DNA from: an uncultured Dongia sp.
GTDB lineage: Bacteria > Pseudomonadota > Alphaproteobacteria > Dongiales > Dongiaceae
Length of the DNA: 64,000 nucleotides
Assembly (NCBI RefSeq): GCF_936916975.1
Contig: NZ_CAKZGO010000004.1
Location: 124,001-188,000, forward strand
Direction of reading: 5' to 3'
In this document: one piece after another, positions 3,504-64,000 of the stretch
Position numbering within the stretch: the first letter of the stretch is position 1
How the letters are laid out: the number at the start of each line of letters is the position of its first letter
Program-made: the position numbers and the translations under genes
The notes under the pieces: model-generated
What the model saw: only the letters and a program-made list of their open reading frames with translations
Database searches by the model: none
Told to the model about the DNA's origin: nothing

Positions 3504-4781
3504 GTGGATATCCCTCCCGTTAATAGCGTCGAGATCACGACGCTCGACAATGGTTTTCGCATCGCCACCGATGCCATGGCATCGGTCGAGACCGTCTCGC
3601 TCGGCGTCTGGGTCGGCATCGGCACGCGTCATGAAGAGGCGGCGGAGAACGGCGTTTCGCATCTCCTCGAACACATGGCGTTCAAAGGTACCAAGCGCCG
3701 CTCGGCACGCGACATCGCAGTCGAGATCGAGAATGTGGGCGGTGTCCTCAATGCCTATACCGGGCGCGAGCAGACTGCCTATTACGCCAAGGTTCTCTCG
3801 AACGATCTGCCGCTCGCGGTCGACATCATCGCCGACATCCTGCAGCATTCGACCTATGACGCCACCGAGCTGGAACGCGAGCGCGGCGTCATCCTCCAGG
3901 AGATCGGCCAGGCGGAAGACACGCCGGACGATATCGTGTTCGACTATTTTCAAGAGGCGGCCTTCCCGGGCCAGAGCATGGGCCGCCCGGTGCTCGGCCG
4001 CGCCGAGATCATCGAAGGTCTCCAGGCAGATGCGATCGCGCGTTATCAGACCAGCCGCTATCGGCCCGGCAACATGGTGCTGGCGGCGGCCGGCAGGCTG
4101 GAGCATCGGCACTTGGTTGATCTTGCCGTGAAGGCCTTCGACAGCCTGCCGCGCGGCAACACCGCGACGGTAGAACCGGCGCGCTATCAGGGCGGTGAAT
4201 CGCGTTATGCCCGCGAGCTGGAGCAGGCGCATATCCTGCTCGGCTTCGACGGCATCGGCATCCACGATCCGGACTACTACGCGAGCGCGGTGCTCTCGCA
4301 ATTGTTCGGCGGCGGCATGTCATCGCGCCTGTTCCAGGAAGTGCGCGAGAAGCGCGGCCTGGTCTATGGCATCCACAGCTTTGCCAGCGCCTGGAACGAT
4401 GCCGGTCTCTTTGGCATCTATGCCGGGACCGGTGAGGACGAGGCCAAGGAATTGCTGCCGATCGTCTGCGACGAACTCCTCAAGCTGCCACATGACATCT
4501 CCGAAGAAGAACTGCGCCGCGCGTCGGCACAGCTGAAAGCCGGCATCCTCATGGCGCGCGAGAAGACCTCGGCGCGCTGCGAACATCTGGCGTCGCAATT
4601 GCTGACCCATGACCGCGTGATGACCCCGGCCGAGATCGTGGCGAAGGTCGATGCGGTGACGATTGCGGATCTTGCGCGGGTGGCATCACGGCTGATCAAA
4701 TCCAATCCCACCCTCACCGCCATGGGGCCGGTTGGCCATGTCATGGACCTTGCATCTTTGCGCGGCCGCCTGCAGGCTTGA
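3504..4781 (+). CDS. M16 family zinc peptidase (processing-peptidase-like)
   Basis: A single-copy M16 protein of 425 aa resembling the mitochondrial processing peptidase beta subunit. The inverted zinc motif HLLEH is at residues 53-57, with a downstream acidic helix (ERGVILQEIGQ) that should supply the third zinc ligand. The C-terminal half is the usual second inactive M16 domain. The start is a GTG 14 bp after the thrC stop. A thrC-M16-acetyltransferase order is familiar in alphaproteobacteria, suggesting a conserved transcription unit. The substrate is not known; degradation of short peptides or processing of secreted proteins are both possible. Confidence 0.93.
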   Translation: MDIPPVNSVEITTLDNGFRIATDAMASVETVSLGVWVGIGTRHEEAAENGVSHLLEHMAFKGTKRRSARDIAVEIENVGGVLNAYTGREQTAYYAKVLSNDLPLAVDIIADILQHSTYDATELERERGVILQEIGQAEDTPDDIVFDYFQEAAFPGQSMGRPVLGRAEIIEGLQADAIARYQTSRYRPGNMVLAAAGRLEHRHLVDLAVKAFDSLPRGNTATVEPARYQGGESRYARELEQAHILLGFDGIGIHDPDYYASAVLSQLFGGGMSSRLFQEVREKRGLVYGIHSFASAWNDAGLFGIYAGTGEDEAKELLPIVCDELLKLPHDISEEELRRASAQLKAGILMAREKTSARCEHLASQLLTHDRVMTPAEIVAKVDAVTIADLARVASRLIKSNPTLTAMGPVGHVMDLASLRGRLQA

Positions 4782-15003: not shown

Positions 15004-15104
15004 GTCGCGCAGCCAGACTCTTGTGGACTGACATGCCGCATACCCGCTCAAAAATGCCGCTTGACGGATAGTCGCCGGGCGGCCCATCTTGCCCGCGGCA
15101 AAAC

Positions 15105-15358
15105 CCGTGTTGGGAGAGACCTCACCCCCTAGCCAGAGTGACTAGGGGCAGGCGCCGAAGGAGCAACCGCCCCCGGAAACTCTCAGGCAAAAGGACCGAC
15201 ACGGGGAAAAACTCTGGAAAGCGGATGGCCCTCCCACTTGAATAATGGTGGGCTGGGTTTCATCCCACCGAAGGAGTAAACCGCCAGCCTAGTTTGGCAC
15301 GCGACTCGCGCGTGCCGGGGCCGACGGCCAATCTCTCAGGTCCCGAAGACAGAGGGGG
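15105..15358 (+). promoter_or_regulatory. Tandem glycine riboswitch upstream of gcvT
   Basis: Two consecutive glycine aptamers are visible. Aptamer 1 has GGGAGAGACC (15112-15121), CCGAAGGAGCAACC near 15155-15168 and ACTCTCAGGCAAAAGGACCG from 15179. Aptamer 2 has ACTCTGGAAAG (15211-15221), CACCGAAGGAGTAAACCGCC near 15266-15285 and TCTCAGGTCCCGAAGACAGA from about 15333. These match the known tandem gcvT-motif consensus. Glycine binding normally turns the downstream glycine cleavage genes on. About 65 nt separate the second aptamer from the gcvT start. The rest of the 15004-15423 gap holds no gene. Confidence 0.96.
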
Positions 15359-59709: not shown

Positions 59710-60210
59710 TCAATTCAATTCGGCGTCTGAGGCTGCTTCGTGTGCTGCAATGAGCGCATCGGTCAGCACCAGTTTCGCCTTGGCGATTTGGTTGAGCGGC
59801 AGGGCCACTTCGGCCCCTTCGCTGTCGATCTTCACATTCTCGTCGGCGACACCCTTGAGGATGCCCTTGAAACGCTTACGGCCATCGATCGGCTCATGGG
59901 TCTCGATCTTGGCCTCGTGACCGGCATAGCGGTCGAAATCCTTGGGCCGCGTCAGCGGCCGGTCGATGCCGGGGGACGACACTTCCAGCGAATAGGCGCT
60001 GGTGATCGGGTCCTCGACATCCAGAATGGCGGAAACGGCGCGGCTGACCCGGGCGCAATCCTCGACCGCCATCACGCGCCCGTCTTTGGGCTCCGCCATG
60101 ATCTGCAACACCTTCCTGGTGTTGCCGGCAAGCGTCACCCGCACAACCTCGTAGCCGAGGGCGTCGATGCTGGGCGAGATCAGGTCAGCGATGTGATCGG
60201 TCAAAGACAT
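59710..60210 (-). CDS. rimP: Ribosome maturation factor RimP
   Basis: A 166-aa assembly factor for the 30S subunit. The ATG at 60210 (MSLTDHIADLISPSIDALGYEVV) is chosen over an in-frame start at 60321. Family blocks are GRVMAVEDCARVSRAVSAILDVEDPI and YSLEVSSPGIDRPLTRPKDF. First gene of the operon rimP-nusA-ylxR-infB-rbfA-truB-rpsO-pnp; its leader contains a terminator-like hairpin (60297-60322). Confidence 0.96.
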   Translation of the reverse strand: MSLTDHIADLISPSIDALGYEVVRVTLAGNTRKVLQIMAEPKDGRVMAVEDCARVSRAVSAILDVEDPITSAYSLEVSSPGIDRPLTRPKDFDRYAGHEAKIETHEPIDGRKRFKGILKGVADENVKIDSEGAEVALPLNQIAKAKLVLTDALIAAHEAASDAELN

Positions 60211-60296
60211 GCAGTCTGGCAAAAATCCGGGTCGTGAAAAGATTTCAATCCCAGGAAAAGGCGTCAAAAAGGACGCTGTGCCAAAAGCTGCCCAAC

Positions 60297-60322
60297 AAAA
60301 AAGGCGGGCCGTTGGGCCCACC
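60297..60322 (-). terminator. Intrinsic-terminator-like hairpin in the rimP leader (candidate attenuator)
   Basis: On the minus strand GGTGGGCC, loop CAAC, GGCCCGCC (60322 down to 60303) forms an 8-bp stem with one G-U pair, followed by six T residues (60302-60297). It lies about 87 nt upstream of the rimP start. No minus-strand gene lies upstream for it to terminate. GTTGGGC just after the U-run could pair with GCCCAAC inside the hairpin, an alternative fold. Confidence 0.75.
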
Positions 60323-60704
60323 CTCTAGCTGGATCTCATCGGACCCTGGGATTTGCCGGGAATATAGGCATTTCAAGGCGGGATGCAAGGAGATTGTGGC
60401 AAAGGCCAGACACCCCTCACCTGAGGCGATTTGTATTTAACATATTGAAATGAAACACATTATTTGAGAACAATCACCCCCGCTCGCCACCTTGGAGCAG
60501 CCGGCAGGGTACCAGATAAGCCGTTTCCCGCAGCGCGCCGCGCACTTCAGGGAGAAATGACGTCTGGGTGAAATTTCCGAGGCCGGGATGCAACACCGTC
60601 AAAATTTGATCGCTTCCGTCGAAAATGAGCGCCTCCCTGGCCTGATTGCGACATGCAAGGTCGCCCCCAAACGCGGCGGCGGGCACCTCCGCCACTTATC
60701 TTTC

Positions 60705-60892
60705 ATCCCGAGGTGCGGCGCTATTTTCTGGGAGAGTGGCGTCGATAATTGGGAAGCCGGTTGAAACCCGGCGCTGCCCCCGCAACGGTCAAGGCGGATA
60801 TGGGCGCAGCTAAAAGCCACTGGGCATTAGGCCTGGGAAGGCGCTGCGTCCGGCTCGAATGAGCCGCTGCCTGAGCCCGGAAACCAGCCTCA
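60705..60892 (+). promoter_or_regulatory. Cobalamin (adenosylcobalamin-type) riboswitch
   Basis: The conserved core is present in order: GGGAAGCCGGTTGAAACCCG (60751-60770), GCTGCCCCCGCAACGGT, the B12-box-like AGCCACTGGGC (60815-60825), CTGGGAAGGC and the closing GAGCCCGGAAACCAGCC (60873-60889). This matches the known B12 riboswitch consensus on the plus strand. The next gene is gbcA at 61048. The upstream part of this gap, 60323-60704, has an AT-rich stretch (60430-60475) that probably holds promoters, and no gene. Confidence 0.95.
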
Positions 60893-60974
60893 AGGATTTG
60901 GTCCGTGATCGCGGTGGGCGATTGGGCGAGGATGCTTGCGGCTGCTTGGCCGGACGTATCATCGACCAGCTACC

Positions 60975-61040
60975 CCTCAGCAATCACCCGTCATCAACTT
61001 GCCCCACCGGGAGCGCTCACCCGGTGCGCTATCGCTGAGG
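60975..61040 (+). promoter_or_regulatory. Nested hairpins covering the gbcA ribosome-binding site
   Basis: CCTCAGC (60975-60981) is complementary to GCTGAGG (61034-61040), whose GAGG is the likely Shine-Dalgarno site 7 nt before the gbcA ATG. Inside it CACCGGG (61005-61011) pairs with CCCGGTG (61020-61026). This is a plausible expression platform: when it forms, ribosome access to gbcA is blocked. Confidence 0.55.
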
Positions 61041-61047
61041 TGCTTTC

Positions 61048-62292
61048 ATGGTGTCGCGTTCCACCCAGATGCTGGTCGAACTCCTGGGCCGTCAGCCCAA
61101 TTTCAGCCTGCCGCAGAAATTCTATACCGATGCGGATTTCTTTGAAGCAGACCTGGAGAACATCTTCTATCGCGAATGGCTGTTCGTCGGGCATTCCTGC
61201 GAGATCATGAAGGCCGGCGAGTTCATGACCGTGAAGATCGGCGCCTATCCGATCATCATCACCCGCGGCAATGACCGTGTCATCCGCGCCTTTCACAATG
61301 TCTGCCGCCATCGCGGCCAGCAGCTCTGCACCAAGGACAAGGGTTCTGGCGCGCGGCTGGTGTGCCCCTATCATCAATGGTCCTATGACCTCGAGGGTCG
61401 CCTGGTCTATGCGCGCGACATGATGAAGGAGATCGACGCCAAGCAGTTCGGCCTGAAGCCCATCCACTGCGAGGAAATGGCTGGCTACATCTTCATCTCG
61501 CTGGCTGATCAGCCCTCATCTTTCGCCGAGTTCCGTGCCCAGGCGGAAGGCTATATGACCCCGCACAATCTCGAAAATGCCAAGGTCGCCTTCGAATCGA
61601 CCATCGTCGAAGAAGGCAATTGGAAGCTGGTGATCGAGAACAACCGCGAGTGTTATCACTGCGCCGGCAGCCATCCGGAACTGTGCCGCGTCTATTCCGA
61701 CAGCCCGACCCTGACCGGGGTCGATCATGTCGGCGAAGACAATCTCATCGCCGCCCACGCCGCAAGCTGCGAGGCGATGGGCCTCCCCAGCCAGTTCCGC
61801 ATGTCGGCAAACGGCCAGTACCGCACGGCGCGCATCCCCTTCAACAGCGATGCGGTTTCCATGACCATGAGTGGCGCACCAGCAGTCGCCCGCAACACCG
61901 GCGATTATCCATCCAATAATCTCGGTTCCATGCTGCTGTTCCATTTCCCCAACACCTGGAACCATCTGCTGGCCGATCATAGCTTGAGCTTCCGTATCCT
62001 GCCCTTGAGCGCGACGCAGACCCAGGTCACCACCAAATGGCTGGTACACAAGGATGCCGTCGAGGGTGTCGATTATGATGTGAAGACATTGACCGAAATG
62101 TGGCTGGCCACCAACGATCAAGACCGCCGCATCGTCGAGGACAATCAGAAAGGCATTCTCTCGCCCGCCTATGAGCCTGGTCCCTATTCACTCGCCCATG
62201 AAGGCGGCGTCATCCAGTTCATCAAATGGTATGTCGACCTCATCACGCCGCGCCTGAAGCAGGTGACCGCCGCCAACCGCTACGTCGCGTGA
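61048..62292 (+). CDS. gbcA: Glycine betaine monooxygenase oxygenase subunit (Rieske)
   Basis: A 414-aa Rieske oxygenase that removes one methyl of glycine betaine to give dimethylglycine and formaldehyde. The Rieske ligands are C86-R-H88 and C106-P-Y-H109; the mononuclear iron site is in NNRECYHCAGSHPEL (H204, H209, with a later Asp). The overall pattern (REWLFVGHSCEIMKAGEFM start, YVDLITPRLKQ end) follows GbcA. Stachydrine- or carnitine-type Rieske demethylases are alternatives. It is followed by its reductase gbcB and preceded by a B12 riboswitch. Confidence 0.87.
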   Translation: MVSRSTQMLVELLGRQPNFSLPQKFYTDADFFEADLENIFYREWLFVGHSCEIMKAGEFMTVKIGAYPIIITRGNDRVIRAFHNVCRHRGQQLCTKDKGSGARLVCPYHQWSYDLEGRLVYARDMMKEIDAKQFGLKPIHCEEMAGYIFISLADQPSSFAEFRAQAEGYMTPHNLENAKVAFESTIVEEGNWKLVIENNRECYHCAGSHPELCRVYSDSPTLTGVDHVGEDNLIAAHAASCEAMGLPSQFRMSANGQYRTARIPFNSDAVSMTMSGAPAVARNTGDYPSNNLGSMLLFHFPNTWNHLLADHSLSFRILPLSATQTQVTTKWLVHKDAVEGVDYDVKTLTEMWLATNDQDRRIVEDNQKGILSPAYEPGPYSLAHEGGVIQFIKWYVDLITPRLKQVTAANRYVA

Positions 62293-62297
62293 TCGCG

Positions 62298-63365
62298 ATG
62301 GACACGCCGATCAACAACGACAGCTTGCGCTTCTGGGATGCAACGACGACGCCCTTGCGCTGCGTCGACATCATCGCGGAAGCACCCAGCGTGAAGACCT
62401 TCCGCTTCGCGGCAAGCGATGGCAGCTGGTTCCGCTATCGCCCCGGCCAGTTCATCACCGTCGAGTTGCCGGTGCCGGCGGGCACGGTCTATCGTACCTA
62501 CACGCTTTCCTCCTCGCCGACGCGGCCGCAGCTCTGCAGCATCACGGTGAAGGCCCAGGGGAACAGCATCGGCTCGCGCTGGCTGCTGGAAAGCTTCAAG
62601 GTGGGCGGTACACTGAAGGCGTTTGGTCCAGCCGGCGATTTCACCCTGCAGGACGCGCCCACGAAGCTGCTGCTGGTCTCGGGCGGCAGCGGTATCACAC
62701 CGATGCTCTCGATGACGCGCCACCTTTTCGATACGGCAGCCAAGGTCGATATCCGCTTCCTGCATTTCGGCCGCACGCCTTCGGATCTTCTCTGCCGGGG
62801 TGAGTTGGAAAGCATGGCAGCCTCCTGGCCGGCGCTGAAACTGCGCTGGGTGGTGGAAGACGACAGTAGCCAGCCCTGGTCCGGCGCCGCCGGCCGCATC
62901 GACCGGGCGATGCTGTCGCTTCTGTGCCCCGACGTCGCATCGCGCGACGTGTTCTGCTGCGGGCCGGAACCCTTCATGAAGGCGACGCGTGAGGCCGTCA
63001 CGGCCATCGCCGGCTCGCTCAAACGCTATCAGGAGGAAAGCTTCCAACCGGCAGCACCCGCTCCAGCGCCCGCCGCCGCCGCCGCCGCACCGGCAGTGGC
63101 GGAATGCGAGGTGAGCTTCACGAAAAGCCAGCGGTCGGCGAAGATCGGTGGCAATGCGACCGTCCTCTCCGCGGCACAGGCCGCCGGCCTTGCCATCCCC
63201 TACGCCTGCCAGATGGGCCTGTGCGGATCTTGCCGCGTCATGAAAGTCGCTGGCGACGTCACCATGGTCCATGACGGCGGCATCTCCGACGACGAAATCG
63301 CCGAAGGCTATATCCTGGCCTGCTGTTCCAAGCCGGCCAGTGCGGCAATCGAGCTGGATCTATAG
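62298..63365 (+). CDS. gbcB: Glycine betaine monooxygenase reductase subunit
   Basis: A 355-aa NAD(P)H reductase supplying electrons to GbcA. ATG 62298 (MDTPINNDSLRFWD) is 5 bp after the gbcA stop. An FAD domain with RTYTLSSSP, an NAD-binding domain (LLLVSGGSGITPMLSM, CCGPEPFM) and a C-terminal plant-type 2Fe-2S ferredoxin (CQMGLCGSCRV and a later C in ILACC) follow in that order. An Ala/Pro-rich linker (about residues 250-270) precedes the ferredoxin. The domain order matches GbcB. Confidence 0.92.
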   Translation: MDTPINNDSLRFWDATTTPLRCVDIIAEAPSVKTFRFAASDGSWFRYRPGQFITVELPVPAGTVYRTYTLSSSPTRPQLCSITVKAQGNSIGSRWLLESFKVGGTLKAFGPAGDFTLQDAPTKLLLVSGGSGITPMLSMTRHLFDTAAKVDIRFLHFGRTPSDLLCRGELESMAASWPALKLRWVVEDDSSQPWSGAAGRIDRAMLSLLCPDVASRDVFCCGPEPFMKATREAVTAIAGSLKRYQEESFQPAAPAPAPAAAAAAPAVAECEVSFTKSQRSAKIGGNATVLSAAQAAGLAIPYACQMGLCGSCRVMKVAGDVTMVHDGGISDDEIAEGYILACCSKPASAAIELDL

Positions 63366-63525: not shown

Positions 63526-64000
63526 ATGGCGACACGTTCAACCGAGGCCGATCTGGTCGAGACCAAGCGCCTCAAGGATATTGGCGGCAACGTCGAGATC
63601 ATCGCGCGACAGGAACCCAGCGAGACGAAGATCCTCGCTGTACCGGAACAGGATGCCGCCCTGTTCTTTCCCCATCAATTCGCCGTGGCGGATCATGACC
63701 CGCCGGCAAAAGGGGGCGGCGACTTCCATCAGATTCCCGATCCGGTGTTCGGCGTCGGCGGCAACCCCTTCCCGATCGAAGGCACCGAGAATGACGATGA
63801 ACTCCACGGCAGCGAATATGACGACATCATCAATGCCTATGGCGGCAACGACGACGTCTTTGGTGGCGACGACCATGACACGATCGACCTTGGCGAAGGC
63901 GACGATTACGCGCTGGGTGAAGGCGGCAACGACTGGATCCAGGGCGGCAGCGGCAACGATGCCATCCTTGGTGATTTCGCCGATGCCGACGGAACACCCC
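63526..64000 (+). CDS. RTX calcium-binding repeat protein, cut by the window end
   Basis: ATG at 63526 (MATRSTEADLVETKRL) follows GAGAGGAG. The frame is open to the last base of the window (158 codons), so the 3' end is missing. The first 85 residues are non-repetitive. From about residue 88 glycine/aspartate repeats begin (GTENDDELHGSEYDD, GGNDDVFGGDDHD, GGNDWIQGGSGND), the RTX calcium-binding pattern. It is a second RTX gene besides 44453-45382, and is unlike it outside the repeats. Probably secreted by a type I system; size unknown. Confidence 0.85.
   Translation, partial: MATRSTEADLVETKRLKDIGGNVEIIARQEPSETKILAVPEQDAALFFPHQFAVADHDPPAKGGGDFHQIPDPVFGVGGNPFPIEGTENDDELHGSEYDDIINAYGGNDDVFGGDDHDTIDLGEGDDYALGEGGNDWIQGGSGNDAILGDFADADGTP

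Follow-up and report, generated by a model that had tools for sequence, protein, structure and literature searches.

A 64,000-nucleotide stretch of an uncultured Dongia sp. genome (hereafter the window) carries a cobalamin riboswitch directly in front of gbcA and gbcB, genes for the oxygenase and reductase subunits of a Rieske-type betaine demethylase. We propose that this riboswitch-gbcAB unit is probably a B12-repressed operon whose enzyme needs no B12 and acts as a backup when corrinoid-dependent betaine demethylation fails. Control of this kind is known; a betaine demethylase as its target, interpreted in this manner, appears to be new. We take the window's class to be Alphaproteobacteria, to which the named carriers of the arrangement belong.

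The first-pass annotation, made from the letters of the window, had called a cobalamin riboswitch at 60705-60892, and the Rfam covariance-model check of the leader bears this out: the called span is the core of an RF00174 match that lies far over the cut-off (Table 1), and a whole-genome riboswitch search gives the window aptamer the same score of 102.8 bits. The claim that no gene intervenes before gbcA-gbcB also stands, as 141 nucleotides separate the aptamer end from the gbcA start, on a common strand and with zero genes between 60906 and 61048. The upstream neighbour is an open reading frame (ORF) at 59710-60321 on the minus strand; because it diverges from the leader, the leader needs its own promoter and belongs to the gbcAB pair. 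A weak sigma-70-like promoter match lies at 60445-60474 (1 found versus 0.3 expected), and the sole terminator-like site, at 60678-60693 (1 found versus 0.7 expected), is upstream of the aptamer. An intervening terminator with a separate gbcA promoter, the arrangement that the first-pass annotation had named as a refutation, was looked for and not seen: the terminator scan of the leader found no intrinsic terminator between aptamer and gene, and no promoter was found there either by the consensus-based scan, a type that misses alphaproteobacterial promoters. Of the 32 leaders with a riboswitch described below, 26 match the motif GCTGCCCCCGC of the C-rich aptamer loop by regular expression. Judging by its sequence, the window riboswitch is expected to bind cobalamin and change expression.

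Table 1. Features of the riboswitch leader and of the gene pair, in window positions
Feature	Position	Strand	Basis
Cobalamin riboswitch aptamer RF00174, complete	60694..60906	+	cmscan 102.8 bits, gathering cut-off 31.5, E 1.3e-24, model 1-189
C-rich aptamer loop GCTGCCCCCGCAAC	60773..60786	+	exact sequence position
B12 box AGCCCGGAAACCAGC	60874..60888	+	exact position, within RF00174 match
Conserved post-aptamer hairpin GATCGC-GGTGG-GCGATT, probable kissing-loop partner	60907..60923	+	covariation in 32 homologous leaders
Possible ribosome-site sequestering stem	60975..61040	+	arms 60975-60981/61034-61040, nested hairpin 61005-61011/61020-61026
gbcA-like Rieske oxygenase subunit, 414 amino acids; GbcA/Stc2 clade, group Vb (demethylases of quaternary amines)	61048..62292	+	Rieske and Ring_hydroxyl_A domains
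gbcB-like FAD/NAD/2Fe-2S reductase subunit, 355 amino acids	ATG 62298, stop 63365	+	best match GbcB NF058606

The pairing of this riboswitch with gbcA is widely conserved. A protein tree of 90 rows, built by a quick method, leaves 86 homologue rows after removal of two outgroup and two PDB rows, and Rfam scans find a riboswitch directly upstream of gbcA, in the same place and direction, at 32 of these 86 loci. This conservation answers the suggestion, made with the initial call, that gbcAB homologues be searched for upstream riboswitches; it rules out a chance or isolated association, and because of it, B12 control of a betaine-type demethylase is credible. The carriers (the window; L011, L026, L027, L030, L032, L033, L034; L097-L101; L102, L106, L109, L110, L112, L115, L116; L118-L121, L135, L137, L139-L143 and L147) span seven coded families plus Sinorhizobium meliloti pSymB; the unit is also present on plasmids from Cereibacter azotoformans, Gemmobacter fulvus and Phaeobacter gallaeciensis. 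They make up 29 of the 47 non-PDB rows of a 49-row clade and three rows of a neighbouring 17-row clade, and no riboswitch was found in the other 22, more distant tree rows. The gene after gbcA is a same-strand gbcB homologue at 30 of the 32 riboswitch loci. Among eight additional plasmid loci outside the 86, three have a B12 box, including a second S. meliloti strain.

Loci lacking the riboswitch were scored in several ways. No cobalamin riboswitch was detected in 16 loci, and then in 12 more, at E up to 0.5; absence is based on the B12-box regular expression alone at L148-L151, and on the gathering threshold at L015, L016, L018, L019, L035-L045, L008 and L009. A related-locus scan of genome contigs returned only three Roseibium loci (including L007), all without a riboswitch. 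In genome G469 a riboswitch precedes one gbcA and is missing before another; that genome was scored as positive. G478 has a second copy (L117) without one. On the tree, the riboswitch label requires 11 changes, at least eight of them forced by supported branches, versus 26.6 in shuffles; the label is therefore clustered, and was lost or gained several times. Family f16 offers a natural deletion series, in which L109, L110 and L112 share upstream sequence and keep the riboswitch, while L111, L113 and L114 retain that sequence but the whole riboswitch is gone before gbcA (by eye).

The genomes that carry the unit also carry its presumed B12-dependent counterpart. We searched for this counterpart as PF06253, the MtgB/MttB family of corrinoid methyltransferases, and found it in 28 of 28 riboswitch-gbcA genomes (8 + 12 + 8; the plasmid loci L118-L121 are omitted from the count). 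Because of this complete co-occurrence, gbcAB looks like a B12-independent stand-in. The initial call had placed the riboswitch target outside the usual categories; a B12-independent isozyme is the category that the co-occurrence fits better. Unlike the riboswitch genomes, those from other classes whose GbcA exceeds its cut-off mostly lack PF06253: 12 of the 13 are without it, and only one has it. The contrast of 28/28 with 13/30 riboswitch-less genomes gives a Fisher p of 7e-7, and that inside the clade a p of 0.007, both with kinship ignored. Within family f177, PF06253 occurs in all six riboswitch genomes, and neither the riboswitch nor PF06253 is present in G710, G574 and G516, three genomes from a single genus that may represent one event. 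Short corrinoid-protein frames (PF02607) occur in eight of eight riboswitch genomes among 25 genomes scanned. In the window's own genome, an MttB gene adjoins a DMGDH-like gene (DAO and GCV_T domains) and sarcosine-oxidase-like ORFs, the latter recognized by eye. Another contig encodes an MtgC-like protein whose best NCBIfam match is 'glycine betaine-specific corrinoid protein MtgC', at 199 bits versus a cut-off of 370, and the genome also encodes a full-length MetH.

The identity of the enzyme was assessed from profile scores, active-site residues and the tree. The gbcA product contains the motif NNRECYHC at residue 198, and with it the features of group Vb: an Asn replacing CntA Tyr203, a Glu that bridges, and a Cys-x-x-Cys motif preceding the iron His (correspondence by eye). 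These signature features are drawn from PMC10952381 and PMC7948474, the latter of which describes an Asn at the CntA Tyr203 position as marking group Vb, whose members demethylate glycine betaine and proline betaine. The best NCBIfam match of gbcA is GbcA NF058607, at 527 bits under a cut-off of 670, so we do not class it as a GbcA equivalog; the S. meliloti paralogue and the G225 homologue score 516 and 638 bits against the same profile, and gbcB scores 331 bits against NF058606, under its cut-off of 500. In the tree, the window GbcA sits in the 49-row clade (SH-aLRT, an approximate likelihood ratio branch support, of 99) together with the stachydrine demethylase Stc2 (3vca, 4qup), with which it shares the group Vb signature. 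The neighbouring 17-row clade contains the 13 GbcA proteins over the cut-off, and with these cluster the riboswitch members G225, G314 and G271. An alignment shows that the paralogue encoded behind the pSymB riboswitch of S. meliloti is a protein other than 3vca. The name glycine-betaine demethylase, given in the first-pass annotation, thus holds as membership of the GbcA/Stc2 clade and does not hold at the level of the GbcA cut-off, with Stc2 inside the clade. Sequence comparison gives good grounds for calling the protein a GbcA-like betaine demethylase, with glycine betaine as the likely substrate. Six further Rieske proteins in the same genome match the query along part of its length, at 29-37% identity.

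Downstream of the aptamer, the leaders share a second structural element, the short hairpin listed in Table 1. A stem of this kind is present in 32 of 32 leaders versus a shuffle average of 15.6. Across 25 distinct segments from these leaders, pairing holds in 96% of cells versus 88.9 when shuffled, both sides have changed in four of six pairs, and the covariation score of 0.369 versus 0.232 is reached by 0 of 500 shuffles and in no slid register. The segments are the best stem per leader, with those of L135 and L147 chosen by hand, which raises the paired percentage; a plain alignment that is free of structure places them in register. Read from the sequence, the G-rich loop of the hairpin could pair almost fully with the C-rich loop of the aptamer. 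Kissing between an aptamer loop and a downstream hairpin loop is known in the cobalamin riboswitch class, and we consider it probable that the C-rich loop, which we take to be L5, kisses the loop of this hairpin, presumably P13/L13.

The route from this contact to expression of gbcA is less evident in the leader. Nested hairpins at 60975-61040 had been proposed to hide the gbcA ribosome site, and the arms do exist (CCTCAGC at 60975 with GCTGAGG at 61034 outside; CACCGGG at 61005 with CCCGGTG at 61020 inside), with the stem appearing in one minimum free energy model. Folding of the window leader is no better than that of shuffles (z 0.37), and ribosome-site pairing across the 32 leaders averages 0.56 versus 0.60 shuffled and is higher than in shuffles for 14 of the 32 (Wilcoxon p 0.90). 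The fold score and the comparative test thus provide neither energetic nor comparative support for ribosome-site sequestration as a conserved mechanism, which is at most possible.

In our model, GbcAB would remove one methyl group from betaine with O2 and without B12, most likely converting glycine betaine to dimethylglycine and formaldehyde. When B12 is plentiful, cobalamin would bind the aptamer, the C-rich loop would kiss the loop of the hairpin at 60907-60923, and gbcA expression would drop, while the corrinoid system (MtgB/MttB with MtgC) would carry out betaine demethylation. When B12 is scarce, the corrinoid system would fail, the leader would open, and gbcAB would take over. We infer the ligand, the direction of control, the substrate and the functional replacement from the arrangement and its conservation.

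Riboswitch control of this kind has precedent, and nrdAB is a B12-independent isozyme under a cobalamin riboswitch. Isozymes of B12-dependent enzymes are given as a target category of cobalamin riboswitches (PMC3766115), and metE is described as one such target (PMC2211319). Like the metE and nrdAB systems, the unit described here has an aptamer of the same family in front of a B12-free enzyme, in genomes holding the B12-dependent one; unlike them, its target is a two-component Rieske betaine demethylase and not a methionine synthase or ribonucleotide reductase. The pair is homologous to the oxygenase and reductase of Pseudomonas and Chromohalobacter GbcAB. Unlike the window, the 13 GbcA loci over the cut-off lack a riboswitch (five in one scan and eight in another; 13 of 13 by the B12-box expression), and the seven examined all have a divergent gbcB, with glyA, sox or StcD-like genes near five of the seven. 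Their genomes, of other classes, are probably gammaproteobacterial, and one carries the Pseudomonas RNA CrcZ.

The presumed counterpart has been described in Ruegeria pomeroyi, in which glycine betaine is demethylated by the cobalamin-type MtgBCD, with MtgC and MtgD needed (Mausz et al. 2025, PMC12478193). According to the same source, MtgC and MtgD also serve methionine synthesis in R. pomeroyi, and mtgBCDE is reported in S. meliloti. MtgBCD(E) performs the same first reaction on betaine, there in a B12-dependent manner, and belongs to a protein family unrelated to GbcAB; homologues of MtgB and MtgC are present in the window's genome. That paper assigns gbcAB to other bacteria as their route, and a riboswitch appears only in the reference list. 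Among the matches listed, our literature searches returned no paper that ties gbcA, betaine demethylation or a ring-hydroxylating oxygenase to a cobalamin riboswitch. Rodionov et al. (Journal of Biological Chemistry, 2003) reportedly placed a dioxygenase/reductase pair named 'ardX-frdX' among the alphaproteobacterial genes with B12 elements. In that case the association was already seen in 2003, without the function in betaine demethylation.

Several results weigh against a B12-independent backup for glycine betaine demethylation, and some of these favour other readings. Both the missed GbcA cut-off and the presence of Stc2 in the clade fit a variant with the same isozyme logic and another substrate, wherein a demethylase of proline betaine (stachydrine) or some other betaine replaces an MtpB-like corrinoid methyltransferase. 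In the own genome, an MttB gene beside that of an old-yellow-enzyme-type protein, which resembles StcD by eye, points the same way. PF06253 spans several substrates, so its co-occurrence would be a match for glycine betaine at the family level only, and the counterpart evidence covers PF06253, PF02607 and MtgC. We nonetheless regard another substrate as unlikely: StcD-type genes adjoin riboswitch-less loci only (G056, three Roseibium and two other-class genomes), and the three riboswitch members named above group with the GbcA proteins over the cut-off, G225 falling little short of it. Further points against the backup proposal come from the counts. PF06253 is found in 12 of the 17 same-clade genomes that lack a riboswitch, and the class background (16 of 56 sampled genomes) is lowered because the sample has many small or incomplete genomes. 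The tree offers few independent events behind the co-occurrence: three to four pairs agree, none disagree and four to five show no difference, and the sign test is not significant by itself (median p 0.25). A neighbouring gbcB was not recognised at the riboswitch loci L011 (G012) and L141 (G722).

The riboswitch could also be real and yet exert no control over gbcA, as a relic or a neighbour effect. The absence of gbcA from six same-genus genomes, together with fold tests that resolve no expression platform, supports this and counts against the backup proposal, as does the ribosome-site test. We consider such a lack of control very improbable, as order, strand and a similar distance are kept in 32 loci of several families, along with the covarying hairpin. 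Nor is the riboswitch passively carried along, because three f16 loci lose it yet keep the upstream sequence. The first-pass annotation had offered precursor supply as the reason for the arrangement: low B12 would switch on betaine demethylation as a source of methyl groups and glycine, the latter feeding 5-aminolevulinate and the corrin ring. Betaine feeding does stimulate B12 production in fermentations (PMC8123684), and the window riboswitch belongs to a regulon with corrin-synthesis genes. This leaves unexplained the corrinoid methyltransferases in every tested riboswitch genome and the three f177 genomes that are without both enzymes and riboswitch, and GbcAB frees the methyl group as formaldehyde, not as a methyl donor (PMC12478193). 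The isozyme reading fits the co-occurrence better, and supply is kept as a rival that we find quite unlikely.

We lean slightly towards a broader version of the backup proposal, in which B12 status picks the betaine demethylation machine in aerobic Alphaproteobacteria, MtgBCD under ample B12 and riboswitch-released GbcAB under B12 shortage, rewiring osmolyte breakdown and one-carbon yield. If true, this would be a third pair of B12-dependent and B12-independent enzymes, beside methionine synthase and ribonucleotide reductase. In bacteria of soil, plants and the sea, it would couple the catabolism of an abundant osmolyte to B12 supply, and it would lend indirect genomic support to corrinoid betaine demethylation as a real B12 demand in aerobes. 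A backup role also suggests why both systems co-reside in some Alphaproteobacteria. S. meliloti, with riboswitch-gbcAB on pSymB and mtgBCDE as reported in PMC12478193, is a genetic model in which this could be tested directly.

The window's genome has six cobalamin riboswitches including that of the window, and four of the other five precede a PF01497 periplasmic binding protein gene, cobG, cbtA and a cobU/cobP-type gene. Because the remaining riboswitches lie mostly before B12 genes, gbcAB appears to be a member of a largely normal B12 regulon. The best-scoring one, at 132.5 bits (G000:C7:185812-186025, minus strand; L001, L074), lies between divergent genes: it points at a 103-amino-acid ORF without a Pfam match, and serC-serA, which score above NCBIfam cut-offs, start on the opposite strand.

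Among the carriers, G392 (L049/L030) has its gbcA riboswitch back to back with a riboswitch before nrdA-nrdB (domains confirmed), and G457 (L106) has two back-to-back cobalamin riboswitches, of which the second side starts like that of G392. In G163, a homocysteine methyltransferase (MtgE-like) gene is close to riboswitch-gbcA. Genes resembling StcD, DMGDH, sarcosine oxidase, glyA or sdaA are found in none of the 32 riboswitch-gbcA neighbourhoods. Betaine-catabolism markers are near 10 of 25 riboswitch-less gbcA loci examined, and near five of 18 inside the clade, in a comparison that covers 25 of the 54 riboswitch-less loci and includes some short fetched spans. We count this separation of riboswitch gbcA from betaine-catabolism genes in favour of the backup proposal. 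The markers were chosen by eye; for four of them the domains were confirmed, namely serine hydroxymethyltransferase, serine dehydratase, flavin oxidoreductase and DAO. The riboswitch-less substrate clusters include StcD-like genes in Roseibium and G056 and sdaA-glyA-sox in G367.

A few other features were noted along the way. At L098 (G404), a second cobalamin riboswitch, at 3710-3922, precedes that of gbcA and shares its strand. On C. azotoformans pORIO2, typed as conjugative, the unit (L119) is beside genes annotated as metH, homocysteine S-methyltransferase and the cobalt transporter cbiQ, and is possibly a movable B12 and methyl cluster. In the window itself, an RTX-type calcium-binding repeat protein (Pfam HemolysinCabind) is encoded at 63526-63999, 160 nucleotides past gbcB on the same strand, with no riboswitch link seen, and a glycine riboswitch aptamer (RF00504, 65.6 bits) lies at 15101-15208.

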